DNA of 64,000 nt, from positions 496,001 through 560,000 of the forward strand of contig NZMW01000001.1 of NCBI GenBank assembly GCA_002694685.1, written 5' to 3'. Shown in pieces: positions 4,969-61,316 of the stretch. The translations under genes and the position numbers were made by a program. Source of the stretch: Balneola sp. Its GTDB lineage: Bacteria; Bacteroidota; Rhodothermia; Balneolales; Balneolaceae. The notes beneath the pieces were generated by a model. That model worked only from the letters and a program-made list of their open reading frames with translations. It was not told the DNA's origin and searched no databases. Numbering within the stretch: position 1 is the first letter of the stretch; every line of letters starts with the position of its first letter.

Positions 4969-4998
4969 ATTCGTTTACAATTATGAATATTGGTAAAA

Positions 4999-5036
4999 TA
5001 AAAAAGCCCCAACATAATGTTGAGGCTTTTTTATTT
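4999..5036 (-). terminator. Intrinsic terminator between the two pilin-like genes
   Basis: Read leftward, GCCTCAACAT and ATGTTGGGGC form a stem with a short loop followed by a T6 run. The A-run on the other side makes it potentially bidirectional. It lies just after the 5054-5518 gene and 32 bases before the start of the second pilin-like gene, so it should make the first gene the more abundant transcript. Confidence 0.85.
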
Positions 5037-5053
5037 TATCTCAACTAATTGGA

Positions 5054-53304: not shown

Positions 53305-53793
53305 ATGAAGTTCCAAAGTCACTTATCTATTTATTTAGCCTTCGCTCTCCTCCTATTTATTTCAGCATGCGGAAGCGAGAAGAAAAATGAAGCCGATGCC
53401 CCAAAGCAAGGACGAGAATTGGAATTCACAGAACAAGTAACCTTCATCTCTACTGATGGTGAAGAGATATCAACCATACGAGCTGCTTTAGCAAATGATC
53501 CGGATGAACGAAATCAAGGACTGATGGACGTAAATGAAATGCCTATGGATGCAGGTATGCTGTTTATATTTCCAGATGAGTCCCCAAGAAGTTTCTACAT
53601 GGCAAATACTCCGCTCCCCCTCGATATCATTTTTGTAAGTGCCGATAGTACCATTGTTCGTATTCATCAAAGTACTACCCCTTTTGACAGTGGTCAGCTC
53701 CCTTCCGGAAAACCTGCAAAATTTGTGGTAGAAACCAACGGTGGCTATTGTGTTTCTAATGATATTCAGGAAGGAATGCGTATCCGGTTTTAA
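53305..53793 (+). CDS. DUF192 family lipoprotein
   Basis: A 162-residue protein with a lipoprotein signal (LLLFISACG). The mature part is a DUF192 domain: ALANDPDERNQGLMDVNEMP, GMLFIFPDESPRSFYMANTP and PLDIIFVSADSTIVRIHQST. DUF192 proteins form a small beta-barrel of unknown function. It diverges from the rimP operon and precedes the propeller protein gene by 80 bases. Confidence 0.88.
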   Translation: MKFQSHLSIYLAFALLLFISACGSEKKNEADAPKQGRELEFTEQVTFISTDGEEISTIRAALANDPDERNQGLMDVNEMPMDAGMLFIFPDESPRSFYMANTPLPLDIIFVSADSTIVRIHQSTTPFDSGQLPSGKPAKFVVETNGGYCVSNDIQEGMRIRF

Positions 53794-53873: not shown

Positions 53874-55586
53874 ATGATGAAAATATTTCTCACGCTTAGT
53901 CTCAGCATTTTAACTCTGGGAATAAACCCGAGTGCACATGCTTATTTCCAATCTACTTCAAGTCCGGCATTATTAACAGAGGACGTCTCCATTAGACCCA
54001 TACTGGAATTACCGTCTTCCCCAACCCGGATTTCATATAATAAAGCTGACGGCAATCTCTACATGATCCGCCAGAATGGAGTGCTTTCCTTTATAGATAT
54101 CGATGCCGGTACAAATACCTACCAGCAAGGAAGTGGCGATCACGGACTTGGTGACGTACAAGGGATGGATATATCCGATGAAGGGGAAATATACCTGGTC
54201 GGCAATAGCCGGAATAATGGAGACTTCACCAATACAGCTGTTATTATGAAAGGCGTAAACACAGATGGTAGCTGGACCTGGACTAAAGTAGCCGAGACAG
54301 AACCCTACCCTCTTAGTAACACCGCTTTTGATCACATTGCCAATGCGATTGTCATAAGCCCTGATCAGTCAACTTTATATATAAACAGTGGATCCAGAAC
54401 GGATCACGGTGAAGTGCATGATGTGGATGGAAGATATCCGGGTTTACGAGAAGCACCTCTGACCGCTAAGATACTTAAGGTCCCGGCAGATGCTTCGGGG
54501 TTAGTTTTAGAAAATGATATCGAATTCCTTCGTTCAAATGGATACATCCATGCTGAAGGAACCCGTAATAGTTTCACACTAGCTTTTGATGCTGAAGGCA
54601 ATCTTTTTGGTGGTGAAAATGCCGGGGACCGGGATGATCCTGAAGAACTGAACTGGCTAAGGGAAGGTGAGCATTATGGTTTTCCATGGGTTATAGGCGG
54701 CAATGAAACCCCTATGCAATTTGATGGATATGATTGGGAAAATGATCCCTTTGTTGATCCAAATTCAACCGCTGCAAACGGTGGCTTCTTTTATAACGAC
54801 CCAGACTACCCGGCTCCTCCTGAAGGAGTTACATTTGCTTCAGCAGTAGTAAATACCGGACCAGACGTAGATAATTATAGAGATGCTGCCGATGGACAAA
54901 TCAAGGATGCCAGTGATCAGGATACCGTTCTCACAACTTTTGTATCTCACCTTTCACCCTCGGGATTAGTATTCGACGTTGATGGGAATATGGGTGGCGA
55001 GTATAAAGGTGATGCTTTCATTATGGGATTTTCAAGTACTACCGGTGGAGCCTTCCTGATTGATCGCATGGATTACATTGGTGGAAACCTGATTCATCTG
55101 GAACTCACTAAAAATGAAAGCGGTGACAACTATGAAGTACAGGTAAAAAACTTGATTCAAGGTTTTCTAAATCCTATTGACGCAGAAATCATTGGAAATA
55201 AAATTTATGTACTTGAATTTGGTAATGATAGCTGGCTCAACGCAAACAGAACTACCCAGTTATATGAAGTGACCTTCCCGGGAATGAGTACTTCTGCTGA
55301 AGAAACTGAATCAATTGCAACGGATTTTAGATTGTCCCAGAATTATCCAAATCCCTTCAATCCTACCACAAATATCCCATTTGTACTAAAGAGCCCGGGA
55401 TTTGTAGAAATTGAAGTTTCAAATACATTAGGCAAGCAAGTGGCAAGCCTGGTAAATCGATCAATGAGTGCTTCAGCACATGAGACAACTTTTGATGCCT
55501 TAAACCTTCCATCCGGAGTCTATTTCTATACCCTAAAAGTTGATGGTGTTATCACTCAAACAAAGAAGATGTTACTTCTTAAATAA
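53874..55586 (+). CDS. Secreted PQQ-type sugar-dehydrogenase-like propeller with C-terminal sorting tail
   Basis: A 570-residue protein. After a signal peptide (residues 1-24) comes a six-bladed propeller resembling soluble glucose/sorbosone dehydrogenases (GENAGDRDDPEELNWLREGE then HYGFPWVIGG). The last 80 residues (from about 488) start SQNYPNPFNPTTNIPFVL and end VDGVITQTKKMLLLK, the type A (T9SS-like) sorting domain that directs surface export and anchoring in this group. The catalytic cofactor site was not confirmed. Confidence 0.85.
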   Translation: MMKIFLTLSLSILTLGINPSAHAYFQSTSSPALLTEDVSIRPILELPSSPTRISYNKADGNLYMIRQNGVLSFIDIDAGTNTYQQGSGDHGLGDVQGMDISDEGEIYLVGNSRNNGDFTNTAVIMKGVNTDGSWTWTKVAETEPYPLSNTAFDHIANAIVISPDQSTLYINSGSRTDHGEVHDVDGRYPGLREAPLTAKILKVPADASGLVLENDIEFLRSNGYIHAEGTRNSFTLAFDAEGNLFGGENAGDRDDPEELNWLREGEHYGFPWVIGGNETPMQFDGYDWENDPFVDPNSTAANGGFFYNDPDYPAPPEGVTFASAVVNTGPDVDNYRDAADGQIKDASDQDTVLTTFVSHLSPSGLVFDVDGNMGGEYKGDAFIMGFSSTTGGAFLIDRMDYIGGNLIHLELTKNESGDNYEVQVKNLIQGFLNPIDAEIIGNKIYVLEFGNDSWLNANRTTQLYEVTFPGMSTSAEETESIATDFRLSQNYPNPFNPTTNIPFVLKSPGFVEIEVSNTLGKQVASLVNRSMSASAHETTFDALNLPSGVYFYTLKVDGVITQTKKMLLLK

Positions 55587-55593
55587 GATTAAA

Positions 55594-56358
55594 ATGACCC
55601 GACTTACTCTTACTATGCTGTCTATCGCACTCATTTGTGGAGCGTGTAGCAGCCAAACCAGTAACAATAAAATTGAAGATGGACCTGAGCGCGAACGACC
55701 TGATACGGATTATGTAGCTTACAAAACCACATCAATTACTATTGACGGTGTTGCAGATGAAAAAGCCTGGGACGAAGCAGAATGGAATGACATTGATCAG
55801 CGCTGGCTGGGCGAACCCTATTCCGAGGATGACTTCTCAGGTCGCTTCAAAATTAGCTGGGATGATGATTTTTTGTATCTGATGGCTGAAATTACCGATG
55901 ATGCCCTTGTTGAAATGTATGAAGGCACCGATCAATATTGGAACGATGATATTTTGGAAGTTTTCGTAGATGAGGACTTATCAGGTGGTGATCACCAGTA
56001 TAACTATAATGCCTTTGCTTACCATATAGACACTAATTATGATGTGTTCGACCTCGGCACCGACCGAAACCCGCATTATTTCAACGACCATGTAGAGGTA
56101 AAATATGGCGCCGTAGGTACAACCTACACGTGGGAAGTTGCCATCAAAGTATATGATGATACTTTTGTGAGAGATCAGGAAAACACACCGGTTAAACTAT
56201 CTAGTGGCAAACAAATGGGATTTGCAGTTGCTTACTGCGATAATGATAACAGCCAAATTCGTGAGAACTTCATTGGTTCTGAAGTGATTGAAGGTGAAGA
56301 CAAAAATCGTGGCTGGATAGATGCGGGAATTTTCGGCTCTTTACAACTCGTCGAATAA
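55594..56358 (+). CDS. CBM9-like sugar-binding lipoprotein
   Basis: Start at ATG 55594, which gives a lipoprotein signal ending ICGACSS; a longer frame begins inside the previous gene. The 254-residue protein matches the carbohydrate-binding family 9-like domain: ITIDGVADEKAWDEAEWNDI, DDDFLYLMAEITDDAL and WNDDILEVFVDEDLSGGD. It probably binds carbohydrate on the cell surface and follows the propeller gene by 7 bases, so the two may act together on a sugar. Confidence 0.83.
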   Translation: MTRLTLTMLSIALICGACSSQTSNNKIEDGPERERPDTDYVAYKTTSITIDGVADEKAWDEAEWNDIDQRWLGEPYSEDDFSGRFKISWDDDFLYLMAEITDDALVEMYEGTDQYWNDDILEVFVDEDLSGGDHQYNYNAFAYHIDTNYDVFDLGTDRNPHYFNDHVEVKYGAVGTTYTWEVAIKVYDDTFVRDQENTPVKLSSGKQMGFAVAYCDNDNSQIRENFIGSEVIEGEDKNRGWIDAGIFGSLQLVE

Positions 56359-56365
56359 CACCCTA

Positions 56366-56412
56366 CTATGCAAATAAGCGCTCGTACCCGTGATATGGGC
56401 GTAGCGGGATCA
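56366..56412 (-). pseudogene. C-terminal remnant of a YCII-like gene
   Basis: Read leftward, this segment encodes IPLRPYHGYERLF, then Ala and a stop, matching the last 14 residues of the 59949-60236 gene except for the final residue. The DNA is 36/42 identical over 56371-56412 and 59954-59995, and all five differences inside the matching codons are synonymous. The match ends exactly at the TGA stop of the GLUG-repeat gene. It has no start and no N-terminal part. Confidence 0.8.
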
Positions 56413-59400
56413 TTTAATTAATATCATTTTTTTGATACCAATCTTATCATATTGCTTAAGCTTATAAATGTAAATACCACTACTTAATCTCGAGGCATCA
56501 AAACTAATTGTATGCCTGCCAACCGGCATTTTTTTACTGACAAGAGTAGCTACTTTTTGACCTAAAAGATTATAAACGGTAAGATTTACAACCCCAGTTT
56601 CTGGTACTAGAAAACTAATATTCGTAGTTGGGTTAAAAGGATTCGGGTAGTTTTGCATGAGCTCAAAATCTGTAATTGGTTCTATTCCCTCATCTACAGA
56701 GACAGATACACTATCTATTGATAACACTGGCGGGTTATTTCTTAAACTAGGAAATGTATTTCCTTCCATAACCCAAATATTATCAAAATCCCAATCAGTA
56801 AAAGAGGCTTCATCTAGCATCTCACTAGTCGTTAATCCTTTAATTCCTGAACCACTATATCCATTTGCTCCTAAACTGATACTAGTCGAGTCAATATTCC
56901 AATAATTTGATTTTAATATTCCTGATACGAATTCCCCTAAAAAACTTTTAGCATTATTAGATTCATTAGTTATTCTTCCACTGTAGTAATTATTGGTTAT
57001 TTCTGCTATTTCATTTGTAAATGTAAATGTGGCGTTATAACCTACAAATCCGCCAATATCTTGCCCATTATTGTTTGTGCTGACTGTACTCCTACTATAG
57101 TTATTAGTAATCAATCCCCCCCTATTAGATCCAACCAATCCCCCAACTTGTATCTGACCAGTTACTTTACCATTTGAAAAACTTTCAGATATCCTGCTTC
57201 CATAATCTAACTGCCCAAGAAGACCTCCAATACCACTTTCAGTTCCAATTACTTCACCCTTTGAGGAACTAAGTTTAATGATAGCTCCTTCGTTTGCATA
57301 TCCTACCAACCCTCCTATATAAGTACTACCCTCAATTTTTACATCAACTGAATGGCTTTGACTTACAACTGTGGAATCTCCTATCTCACCTACTAATCCG
57401 CCTACGACTTCATCGCCACTTATACTGCCAGAAATATACACCTCAATAATTGAGCCTCCACTCACAGTACCAGCCAACCCTCCAGCATATCGGTTACCAA
57501 TTATAGTTACTCCATCAAGTACTATTCTTTTAAAATTAGCTTCACGACTAAATCCAAAAAAACCTATTTGATTTGAATCTGGTCGATTAATAAATAAGCC
57601 GCTTATTTTAAAACCACTACCGTCAAAACTACCAGTAAATCTTGAAGAAATTGGATTAGATTCATCTCCAATAGGTTTCCAGCCTTCCCCAGAGTTATAT
57701 GGCTTCTGATCAAGCTCGATATCGCCTACAAGAACAAAATGCTTATTGAGAAATAATCGAATAGAATCTAACTGAGAAGCAGTTGCAATTTGCCAAGGAT
57801 TATCTGGTGTGCCTAACCCGCCAGCAAATAAGCCGTTACCATTTTGAGCTACGGGCAATGGATCCTGTGGATTATTCTTTAGCCATGGAAATGTCCCTTC
57901 ATCGAGATTCCAAATCTCCATAAAATCCCAGTCCTTAAAAGATGAATCTTGGCTCATCTCCAAAGAAGTTAATCCAGTTAAACCAATAACATCATCATTA
58001 GGTATACCAATAAGAGTACTTACATCTACATTCCAGTAGCTTGATTCAATTTCACCTGAATTAAAAACTCCGATAAATCCACCAAAAGAATCTTTACCTA
58101 CTAATGGAGATGCTGAATAGGAATTCACAATAGATGAATTTGTATTCTCCCCAATGAATCCACCAACCCCTGAATTCCCAAAAATAGAACCTACAGAATA
58201 ACTGTTTGTTATAGTTGAATTATCACTATAACCAATGAAACCACCAATTCTTTCATCATCACTTTCTACAGAAGAGGAAGAATAACTTTGTGTTATAAAA
58301 GTATTTTTAGCAAAGCCAATCAAACCTCCTGTATGTATAGCTTCAGCGTTTACGGAACCAGTTGAACTACTTCTCTCAATAGTTGAATTTTCACTTTTTC
58401 CTACCAAGCCTCCACTTTCATTTCTCCCAATAATTTCTGAATTAGCACTGCTATTTAAAATAGTTGATTCATAATTACTACCCACTAATCCTCCAGTAAG
58501 TCCTGATCCATTTACATTACCTGAAAAATAACTGCTATCAATTACCGACATAAAAGCGCTCCTGCCGGTTAATCCACCTGTTAAACTTTCGCCAACAACA
58601 ATCGCTCCTGTGAAGTCATAGCCAGTAACTACCGATTCTGCGAAACTATTATGGATAGTAGAATTAGTATTATCTCCTACTAAACCACCGGTCAAAATTC
58701 CTAATCCATTTTCAGGGTTTACGCCAGTTATAGCCCCTTTTGCATTGCTATTATAAATGAAAGAATCTTCGTTCCACCCAACAAGTCCCCCGGTAGCTTC
58801 TTCTCCAGTTACAGTTCCTGAGTAATAACTACTATCAATCACAAAGCCACTCGTATTATACCCAACCAGCCCTCCAGTCTTTTGTTGTCCTGTTACTTCC
58901 CCAGTTGCATAACTACTAATAATCTTTGAAGTTTCTTCATCAAATCCACTAGTCCTTCCAACTAAGCCCCCTGTATATTCAATTCCTGTGACCTTGCTGG
59001 TTACAAAACTTTCTATAATTGTTGTTCTGCTATTAAATCCTATCAACCCACCAGTATCACTACCAGTTCCTATTATGGCTCCTTCAGAATGATTACTATT
59101 ACTTATAATTGCTTGGCTGGTATAACCTACGAGACCTCCTGTATACTCAATACCATCTACTTTTCCAGTGGCAAAGCTACTTGCTAAGGTTGTATTACTA
59201 CTAAGTGACCCTGCAATCCCACCTGTTCGATTATTTCCTATTACTTCACCCTCAAAAGAGCTATTACTTATGATTGAAGTTCTATTAATTAAAGAGCCAA
59301 CTAAGCCCCCAATGTTTTGATTACCCTTAACTGCACCGTCAATACTTGAAGAATCAATTGAAGTAAAGTCTGCGAAACCTACTAAACCCCCTACATGCTC

Positions 59401-59808
59401 ATTACCAATCACATTTATATTGAGAAGAACTACTTTCGTAAAAGAAGCAGACGAAGTGTATCCAAATAGCCCAACTGATCTTGAATTAGGTTTATTGATG
59501 TACAAACCACTAATAGTATAGCCATTACCGTCAAAGCTGCCACCAAAGCGTATTGAATTCTCTCCCAAGAATCCAATGGGTTCCCATCCTTCGCCGGTAT
59601 TAAATGGAGCCACATCCAGATCAATGTCTTCTGTTAAAATAAAATGGTCTTCTAAAAAATATCTAGTTGAATCAAGCTGTGCAGCATTACTGATTTGGTA
59701 GGGAGCATTTTCAGTTCCATCCCCTGCTGAAAACTGACTAAACCCTTTTATTGGAATGACTAATAAGAAAAGTATTAGCGCCACGTCATACTTCTTGAAT
59801 ATACCCAC
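56410..59808 (-). CDS. Large secreted GLUG-repeat protein with C-terminal sorting tail
   Basis: A 1132-residue surface protein with a signal peptide (residues 1-24). Two similar blocks each begin with a GxGTxxxPYQI-type segment (about 28-95 and 655-740, e.g. DSTRYFLEDHFILTEDIDLD) and continue with GLUG repeats of the type GGLVGxNxxxxIxxSxxxG (about 95-640 and 745-1010). The last 80 residues begin LMQNYPNPFNPTTNISFLV, the same sorting domain as in the propeller protein. It is likely an adhesin or cell-surface binding protein. Its stop overlaps the remnant at 56366-56412. Confidence 0.85.
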   Translation of the reverse strand: MGIFKKYDVALILFLLVIPIKGFSQFSAGDGTENAPYQISNAAQLDSTRYFLEDHFILTEDIDLDVAPFNTGEGWEPIGFLGENSIRFGGSFDGNGYTISGLYINKPNSRSVGLFGYTSSASFTKVVLLNINVIGNEHVGGLVGFADFTSIDSSSIDGAVKGNQNIGGLVGSLINRTSIISNSSFEGEVIGNNRTGGIAGSLSSNTTLASSFATGKVDGIEYTGGLVGYTSQAIISNSNHSEGAIIGTGSDTGGLIGFNSRTTIIESFVTSKVTGIEYTGGLVGRTSGFDEETSKIISSYATGEVTGQQKTGGLVGYNTSGFVIDSSYYSGTVTGEEATGGLVGWNEDSFIYNSNAKGAITGVNPENGLGILTGGLVGDNTNSTIHNSFAESVVTGYDFTGAIVVGESLTGGLTGRSAFMSVIDSSYFSGNVNGSGLTGGLVGSNYESTILNSSANSEIIGRNESGGLVGKSENSTIERSSSTGSVNAEAIHTGGLIGFAKNTFITQSYSSSSVESDDERIGGFIGYSDNSTITNSYSVGSIFGNSGVGGFIGENTNSSIVNSYSASPLVGKDSFGGFIGVFNSGEIESSYWNVDVSTLIGIPNDDVIGLTGLTSLEMSQDSSFKDWDFMEIWNLDEGTFPWLKNNPQDPLPVAQNGNGLFAGGLGTPDNPWQIATASQLDSIRLFLNKHFVLVGDIELDQKPYNSGEGWKPIGDESNPISSRFTGSFDGSGFKISGLFINRPDSNQIGFFGFSREANFKRIVLDGVTIIGNRYAGGLAGTVSGGSIIEVYISGSISGDEVVGGLVGEIGDSTVVSQSHSVDVKIEGSTYIGGLVGYANEGAIIKLSSSKGEVIGTESGIGGLLGQLDYGSRISESFSNGKVTGQIQVGGLVGSNRGGLITNNYSRSTVSTNNNGQDIGGFVGYNATFTFTNEIAEITNNYYSGRITNESNNAKSFLGEFVSGILKSNYWNIDSTSISLGANGYSGSGIKGLTTSEMLDEASFTDWDFDNIWVMEGNTFPSLRNNPPVLSIDSVSVSVDEGIEPITDFELMQNYPNPFNPTTNISFLVPETGVVNLTVYNLLGQKVATLVSKKMPVGRHTISFDASRLSSGIYIYKLKQYDKIGIKKMILIK

Positions 59809-59948
59809 TTTATACCCTCACCTTTTTAAACTTATACCCGAAAACTATTTTAAATACTAAGTTCAATTTAGTATACATTTAGCAATCATGCCAATAATGT
59901 CAGCTAACTTTTAAAGCCAGAGTATTTATTAGAAGAGACCTAAATTAC

Positions 59949-60236
59949 TTAAACAAACAAGCGTTCGTACCCGTGATATGGGCGAAGTGGAATGAGTTCG
60001 AAGCTGATTAAGCCCTTTTGTACAAGCGGTAGTGAAGCCAGTTTTTCTTCGGCTTCTTCTACATTTTCACATTCCAAAATTAAAACAGCTTCCGGTTTGT
60101 CGTCACGAAAGTACATCTCTCGAATTATACCTTCTTTATAAAGATCCCAGCCTTTTTGAGCCTCATCTCTCAAGTGAGGCACAAAATCCCGTTTAGAAAG
60201 TCCCTCTGCTTCTTTTTGAATAGCAATTATTCTCAT
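59949..60236 (-). CDS. YCII-like/muconolactone-isomerase-like small protein
   Basis: A 95-residue protein of the dimeric alpha-beta barrel type, resembling YCII-related and muconolactone isomerase-like families (MRIIAIQKEAEGLSKRDFVP, DLYKEGIIREMYFRDDKPEA, VEEAEEKLASLPLVQKGLIS). No catalytic residue was assigned. The C-terminus IPLRPYHGYERLFV is duplicated as a remnant at 56366-56412. The start is 54 bases downstream of the fbp stop. Confidence 0.68.
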   Translation of the reverse strand: MRIIAIQKEAEGLSKRDFVPHLRDEAQKGWDLYKEGIIREMYFRDDKPEAVLILECENVEEAEEKLASLPLVQKGLISFELIPLRPYHGYERLFV

Positions 60237-60290: not shown

Positions 60291-61316
60291 CTACTGTTCT
60301 ACAGCAGCATACTCTTCAAGGAAATCCATCACTTTCCTGACATTTTGCTTCGAGCCAATGTAGATCGGTGTTTGCTGATGAATAGACTTCGGCTGAAGAT
60401 CCATAATTCGAGTTTGTCCATCCGTTGCCATTCCCCCTGCTTGTTCAATGATAAAACTAAGCGGATTACATTCGTACATAAGGCGAAGTTTACCGTTTGG
60501 ATACTTCTTGCTGTGAGGATATATAAAGATTCCCCCTTTTATCAACGTTCGGTGAATATCCGCTACCATAGAACCGATATAACGAGCTGAATATGGTCGT
60601 TCGGAATCAGCATCTTCTTCCTGACAATACTTAATATACTTTTTAAGCCCTAAATCCCATGAATTGTAGCTTCCCTCATTAATACTATAAATGGGTCCGT
60701 GTTCCGGCATTTTTATACCGCGATCACTCAAAATAAATTCGCCAATGCTCGGGTCAAGAGTAAAAATGGAAACACCGAGTCCAGTTGTGTAGGCCAGAGT
60801 AGTACTTGAACCATACAATACATAGCCCGCTGCTACCTGCCGAACACCGGGTTGGAGAGCATCATCTTCTCTTACGGTTGGATCGAACCGTGCTTCTCTC
60901 ATATAGACTGAAAAAATGCTCCCAATAGAAACATTCACATCTATATTTGAAGACCCATCTAAAGGATCCAGGTAAACAATATACTTCCCGCCTTTACTTC
61001 CTAACTTGACAACTCCATCATTTTCTTCAGAGATAACCATACAGGTAATGAGCGATCGGTCCAAAGCCGAAATAAGCTGTTGGTCTGCAAAAAGATCCAG
61101 CTTCTTTACTGATTCACCATGTATATTTGTTGAGCCATCATATCCTAAGATATTCGTAATACCTGCCTTGTTTACTTCACGCGAGATAATCTTGGCGGCA
61201 AGGCCAATATCCCTAAGCAGCTGCGAAAGTTCTCCTGTAGCTCCAGGGAACCTATTTTGGGACTGAATGATGTATTCTTCTAAGGTTACCAATCTTGATT
61301 CCTTTGTATTAGGCAT
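60291..61316 (-). CDS. fbp: Class 1 fructose-1,6-bisphosphatase
   Basis: A 341-residue enzyme that hydrolyses fructose-1,6-bisphosphate in gluconeogenesis. The metal site DPLDGSSNIDVNVSIGSIF, the substrate-binding YIGSMVADIHRTLIKGGIFI and KYPNGKLRLMYECNPLSFII are intact. It belongs to the same orientation as the YCII-like gene and lies downstream of coaE. Confidence 0.95.
   Translation of the reverse strand: MPNTKESRLVTLEEYIIQSQNRFPGATGELSQLLRDIGLAAKIISREVNKAGITNILGYDGSTNIHGESVKKLDLFADQQLISALDRSLITCMVISEENDGVVKLGSKGGKYIVYLDPLDGSSNIDVNVSIGSIFSVYMREARFDPTVREDDALQPGVRQVAAGYVLYGSSTTLAYTTGLGVSIFTLDPSIGEFILSDRGIKMPEHGPIYSINEGSYNSWDLGLKKYIKYCQEEDADSERPYSARYIGSMVADIHRTLIKGGIFIYPHSKKYPNGKLRLMYECNPLSFIIEQAGGMATDGQTRIMDLQPKSIHQQTPIYIGSKQNVRKVMDFLEEYAAVEQ

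Follow-up and report, generated by a model that had tools for sequence, protein, structure and literature searches.

Organisation of the locus

The window analysed here, a stretch of 64 kb taken as a whole, belongs to a marine bacterium of the genus Gracilimonas in the phylum Balneolota, a phylum in which, to our knowledge, the means of gene exchange have been little studied. The features of the locus under study are collected in Table 1. Between a DUF192 gene and a fructose-1,6-bisphosphatase (FBPase) gene lie three accessory genes and a small, conserved, enzyme-like gene of 95 codons. Across the 129 genomes of the order the accessory dehydrogenase is patchily distributed (14 genomes) and the CBM9 gene rare (5 genomes at E<=1e-12); the GLUG-repeat gene, which encodes a surface protein, has only distant relatives, with no close orthologue in the family searched. 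When the open reading frames, Pfam matches and repeats of the insert were examined, neither an integrase or recombinase nor transposon ends were found. Elsewhere in the window, a 45-bp palindrome that is nearly perfect and contains runs of A and of T occupies positions 4994-5038; it is probably a transcription terminator working in both directions.

The small gene had been called YCII-like in an earlier, sequence-only reading of this DNA. This name is abandoned: the protein does not match the Pfam YCII model, and its sole Pfam match is to Muconolactone delta-isomerase (MIase) at 19.2 bits, under the cutoff of 26.7. Within the genus the gene is patchy (6 of 10) and strongly conserved where it is found. 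Relatives at 40-45% identity occur on proteobacterial plasmids, where they are annotated as 'superoxide dismutase' or as hypothetical; the former label is probably a misannotation. A search of GTDB contigs for sister species returned only four loci, of which one (L080) is new and sits in an unrelated neighbourhood.

Table 1. Features between the two conserved borders, with positions in the window
Feature	Position	Strand	Basis
DUF192 protein, left border of the insertion spot	53305..53793	+	Pfam PF02643; syntenic in all nine congener/relative loci holding it; tree without conflict with the core tree
Accessory glucose/sorbosone dehydrogenase-like protein, type IX secretion tail	53874..55586	+	Pfam GSDH, Por_Secre_tail
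Accessory CBM9 carbohydrate-binding protein	55540..56358	+	Pfam CBM9_1
Stump of the small gene, IPLRPYHGYERLF-A-stop	56366..56410	-	34/39 nt to the intact tail
Junction, GLUG stop TGA meets the stump, possible TGAT microhomology	56410..56412	-	Sequence
GLUG-repeat protein, type IX secretion C-terminal domain	56410..59808	-	Pfam Glug, Por_Secre_tail
Intact counterpart of the stump	59949..59993	-	Nucleotide comparison
Intact small gene, 95 aa	59949..60236	-	Single copy in the genome; orthologues at 74-89% identity
Fructose-1,6-bisphosphatase, right border of the insertion spot	60291..61316	-	Pfam FBPase; syntenic in congeners

A stump of the small gene beyond the GLUG gene

Beyond the GLUG gene, positions 56410-56366 of the minus strand encode IPLRPYHGYERLF-A-stop, which is the tail of the small gene (60236-59949) bar the last residue. 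The stump reads ATC CCG CTA CGC CCA TAT CAC GGG TAC GAG CGC TTA TTT GCA TAG and its intact counterpart (59993-59949) ATT CCA CTT CGC CCA TAT CAC GGG TAC GAA CGC TTG TTT GTT TAA. Thirteen codons specify IPLRPYHGYERLF in both, with five nucleotide differences that are all synonymous; residue 14 is A in the stump versus V in the intact gene, with two nucleotide differences, and the stops are TAG versus TAA. The sequence-only reading had placed and read this repetition correctly but had counted 14 shared codons, and its statement that all the differences are synonymous holds for the 13 and not for the fourteenth.

Over the 13 codons the two copies agree at 34/39 nt, including an identical core of 20 bases, and the match has a blastn E value of 1.6e-8 against the whole window. 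It is the only pair of direct repeats in the 64-kb window that lie less than 15 kb apart at E<1e-4. Elsewhere in the window the 39-nt tail is matched at no more than 22/39 positions (same strand) or 21/39 (opposite strand), on which ground a chance match was rejected. A dispersed, REP-like repeat was also rejected. The identical core has two exact copies in the whole genome, plus one further match at 3 mismatches, and a back-translated peptide search across 129 genomes of the order found two copies of the IPLRPYHGYERLF motif in this genome, a single copy in each of 9 others and none in the remaining 119. The scar is thus real, and it is not an instance of a widespread repeat.

The DUF192-FBPase interval in related genomes

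The ancestral gene order is rimP, DUF192 (+), small gene (-), FBPase (-), and is seen in four Gracilimonas genomes (G001, G005, G007, G008) and in one of another genus (G026). At these empty sites the convergent stops of DUF192 and the small gene are 20-46 bp apart. In this genome, 6.1 kb separates the two genes and comprises the GSDH-type dehydrogenase, the CBM9 gene, the stump and the GLUG gene. The GLUG gene had been proposed as the arrival; the comparison widens this proposal, as the whole 6.1 kb is extra and not the GLUG gene alone. Two congeners (G002, G006) have lost the small gene and their site is otherwise empty. In G004 (L039:4403-12153) about 8 kb of arabinose genes stands between DUF192 and FBPase, without the small gene, and in G003 (L042/L041 and L102/L103) the interval is filled by about 50 kb that contains arabinose genes, GH5, GH9 and GH43 genes and the small gene itself. 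The sugar-metabolism genes inserted in these two species include arabinose isomerase, kinase and aldolase. The stump is not carried by the inserts of other congeners at this position.

Differing accessory content thus lies between the same core genes in this genome (G000), G003 and G004, and none is present in six congeners, so that the DUF192-FBPase interval is a hotspot of gene turnover in the genus, in a comparison that spans about ten species. No strains of the same species were found in the collections searched. It had been suggested to look for strains that lack the GLUG gene and carry either two intact small genes or none: several congeners have lost the gene, but a second whole copy is in no genome of the 129 searched.

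Divergence and origin of the two alleles

How old is the divergence between the stump and the intact gene? Over the 39-nt tail, the stump and the intact copy differ at 5 positions, the intact copy and G007 at 5, the intact copy and G005 at 6, and the stump and G005 at 7. The nearest sequence to the stump is therefore the intact copy (5/39), followed by G005 (7/39). The divergence of the two alleles (5/39) is like that between congeneric species. Changes made after truncation are expected to be synonymous by chance in about a quarter to a third of cases, and five synonymous changes out of five have a probability of about 0.0007-0.003 if all changes were free. As such an outcome is unlikely, most of the divergence is older than the truncation. 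The suggestion that a formerly selected second, or xenologous, allele was cut at the GLUG boundary gains support from the relatives without an insert, which have one intact copy set against DUF192, and from the several congeners in which the gene is lost or other inserts occupy the site.

A tandem duplication might also have produced the two copies, if the lineage once had two functional small genes that diverged as paralogues and then lost all but the end of the outer gene when the GLUG gene intervened. Stump and intact copy are mutual nearest or joint nearest sequences (the distance between the intact copy and G007 is also 5), and both end one residue after ERLF, versus ERLFEKE in four congeners, as a duplication would predict. 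However, two whole copies occur in 0/129 genomes searched, and the scheme requires a long functional two-copy phase that is otherwise unattested; we regard it as unlikely. A xenologous source of the second allele is the simplest and more likely than a tandem duplicate, an old paralogue being possible.

Trees were built for the core genes, DUF192, FBPase and the small gene and compared by AU tests. The DUF192 tree is compatible with that of the core genes (AU p 0.32). The best tree of the small gene places this genome outside G008, and the core tree is not rejected (AU p 0.13). Signals of transfer or recombination in these two gene trees are thus not significant, the species being too diverged, and the choice of the native allele by trees was given up on the same tests. 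A mosaic breakpoint within the small gene was considered by block-wise identity and set aside: identity to the congeners is somewhat higher over the final 13 codons than over the rest, but these encode the most conserved peptide. No donor genome for either allele was found in the genomes and GTDB contigs searched.

The junction at the GLUG stop codon

The similarity between the stump and the intact gene ends at the GLUG stop codon, as the sequence-only reading had noted: the last base of the TGA (56412-56410) is the first base of the stump, and TGA or TGAT at most is common to both sides. The GLUG protein ends ...KKMILIK, with the usual final Lys, followed by TGA; it is therefore complete, with the break at its stop. 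At the corresponding position congeners carry CTGATTCC, and in four of them the matching point of the small gene reads CTG ATT CC. The stump's own Leu codon was therefore plausibly CTG, and TGA(T) may be a shared microhomology: an allele reading CTG ATC CCG would have TGAT in common with the GLUG end. Such microhomology would amount to 3-4 nt at most and depends on the assumed Leu codon. The junction has no extended homology, in line with illegitimate recombination, for which 0 to a few nt of microhomology are characteristic. On the other side, the stops of the CBM9 gene and of the stump are 7 bp apart. This tight convergence has the same layout as that of the small gene and DUF192 in relatives, which suggests that the stump allele once stood whole against CBM9.

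Might the stump have been kept for a function of its own, either as a terminator or as a frame of 15 codons (ATG ATC ...) coupled to the GLUG stop by an ATGA overlap? The overlap is present in the sequence and the peptide is intact. Against this, the RNA fold is no better than that of shuffled sequences (z 0.13), a terminator scan is negative at the stump, and synonymous-only change is what is expected when divergence is older than truncation. A retained function is thus improbable in the extreme, and the stump itself is most likely without one.

A model for the origin of the stump

Based on these observations, we propose that the stump is what is left of the 3' end of a second small-gene allele, a recombination scar at the DUF192-FBPase insertion hotspot, a reading to which we assign a probability of about 0.68. 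The ancestor had DUF192 and the small gene convergent, followed by FBPase, as the relatives attest, and the accessory genes came in between the two convergent stops, as the comparison of loci shows. Two alleles would have been brought together whose earlier divergence took place under coding selection, to judge from the five synonymous differences out of five. On one side, the incoming DNA probably found its anchor in homology with the conserved flank, and on the other it was probably joined through the short TGA/TGAT microhomology, with the breakpoint at the GLUG stop codon and within the small gene. One allele would thereby have been kept whole, and 13 codons and the stop of the other would persist beyond the GLUG gene. 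Such an event would be a case of homology-facilitated illegitimate recombination, or of some equivalent one-sided process, and the donor piece may have been either the small gene with the GLUG gene or the stump with the CBM9 and dehydrogenase genes, as the data fit both orders of arrival. Against the model stand the absence of a donor, and of two whole copies, from the genomes searched and the lack of a significant transfer signal in the gene trees, and it accounts only partly for the coincidence that the breakpoint falls exactly at the GLUG stop. One-sided homologous events with an illegitimate junction have been documented in transformation and conjugation (PMC3240628). A ComEC-like DNA uptake protein is encoded in this genome, as it is in 10/14 control genomes, and so is not specific.

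This model does not describe a new system; the locus is a well-preserved and unusually legible case of a known process of gene displacement. For the T6SS arrays of Vibrio it has been proposed that old 3' genes become orphans, displaced downstream by the modules that come in (PMC5361080). As in these orphan immunity arrays and in rhs C-terminal displacement, a new module lies here beside a conserved gene and an old 3' part is orphaned downstream without a recombinase, whereas the leftover consists of 13 codons of a housekeeping-like gene and not of an immunity gene, no polymorphic toxin is present and the scar is single. Hotspots that lack mobile-element genes and exchange their content by recombination in the core genes on either side occur commonly (PMC5635113). 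The present interval resembles them in having variable genes between fixed DUF192 and FBPase genes in one genus, with no mobile-element genes in the insert, and differs in that about ten species are compared and the AU tests on these diverged species gave no significant recombination signal in the flanking genes. The locus offers a fresh, readable junction and puts DUF192 and FBPase on record as the borders of an accessory-gene hotspot in Gracilimonas. It also suggests that such gene gains may proceed without mobile elements, and leaves the general picture unchanged.

A direct repeat of a gene's 3' end also recalls site-specific integration. The island SGI1 integrates at the 3' end of trmE (PMC8409611), and by analogy an element might have carried its own 3' end of the small gene, restored the frame, though with synonymous differences, and displaced the native end. 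As in islands of this type, a gene 3' end forms a direct repeat at both borders of the extra DNA, it is confined to that 3' end and the reading frame is restored; in addition, an imperfect inverted repeat surrounds ATATCAC in the identical core. Unlike SGI1-type islands, however, the insert encodes no recombinase, integrase or mobility genes among its open reading frames, the repeat is 87% and not identical, and it is missing both at other GLUG loci and from the inserts of congeners. The symmetry of the core is dictated by the peptide, the motif does not occur in IMG/VR contigs, no phage sequence carries the tail or a relative, and on plasmids the relatives are distant (under 60%). Integration of this kind is thus decidedly improbable.

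A bolder idea, which we hold to be very improbable, is that the repeat pair works as a direct-repeat switch, with the GLUG gene as a clean, reversible accessory cassette whose docking site is a conserved gene's 3' end. From the sequence, a crossover within the 20-bp core common to both copies would remove 3.6 kb together with the GLUG gene, leaving a perfectly intact 95-codon gene ending ...ERLFA. A general GLUG cassette with flanking repeats was rejected: the three other GLUG loci of the genome are without them, one of these loci running to the contig end. Another GLUG gene of the same genome (L101:1-7657, which is G000:C11:6000-13656) adjoins a SEFIR/TIR-domain gene and a gene of the phage-integrase family, and the integrase region is repeated alongside in inverted orientation (879 bp, 81%).
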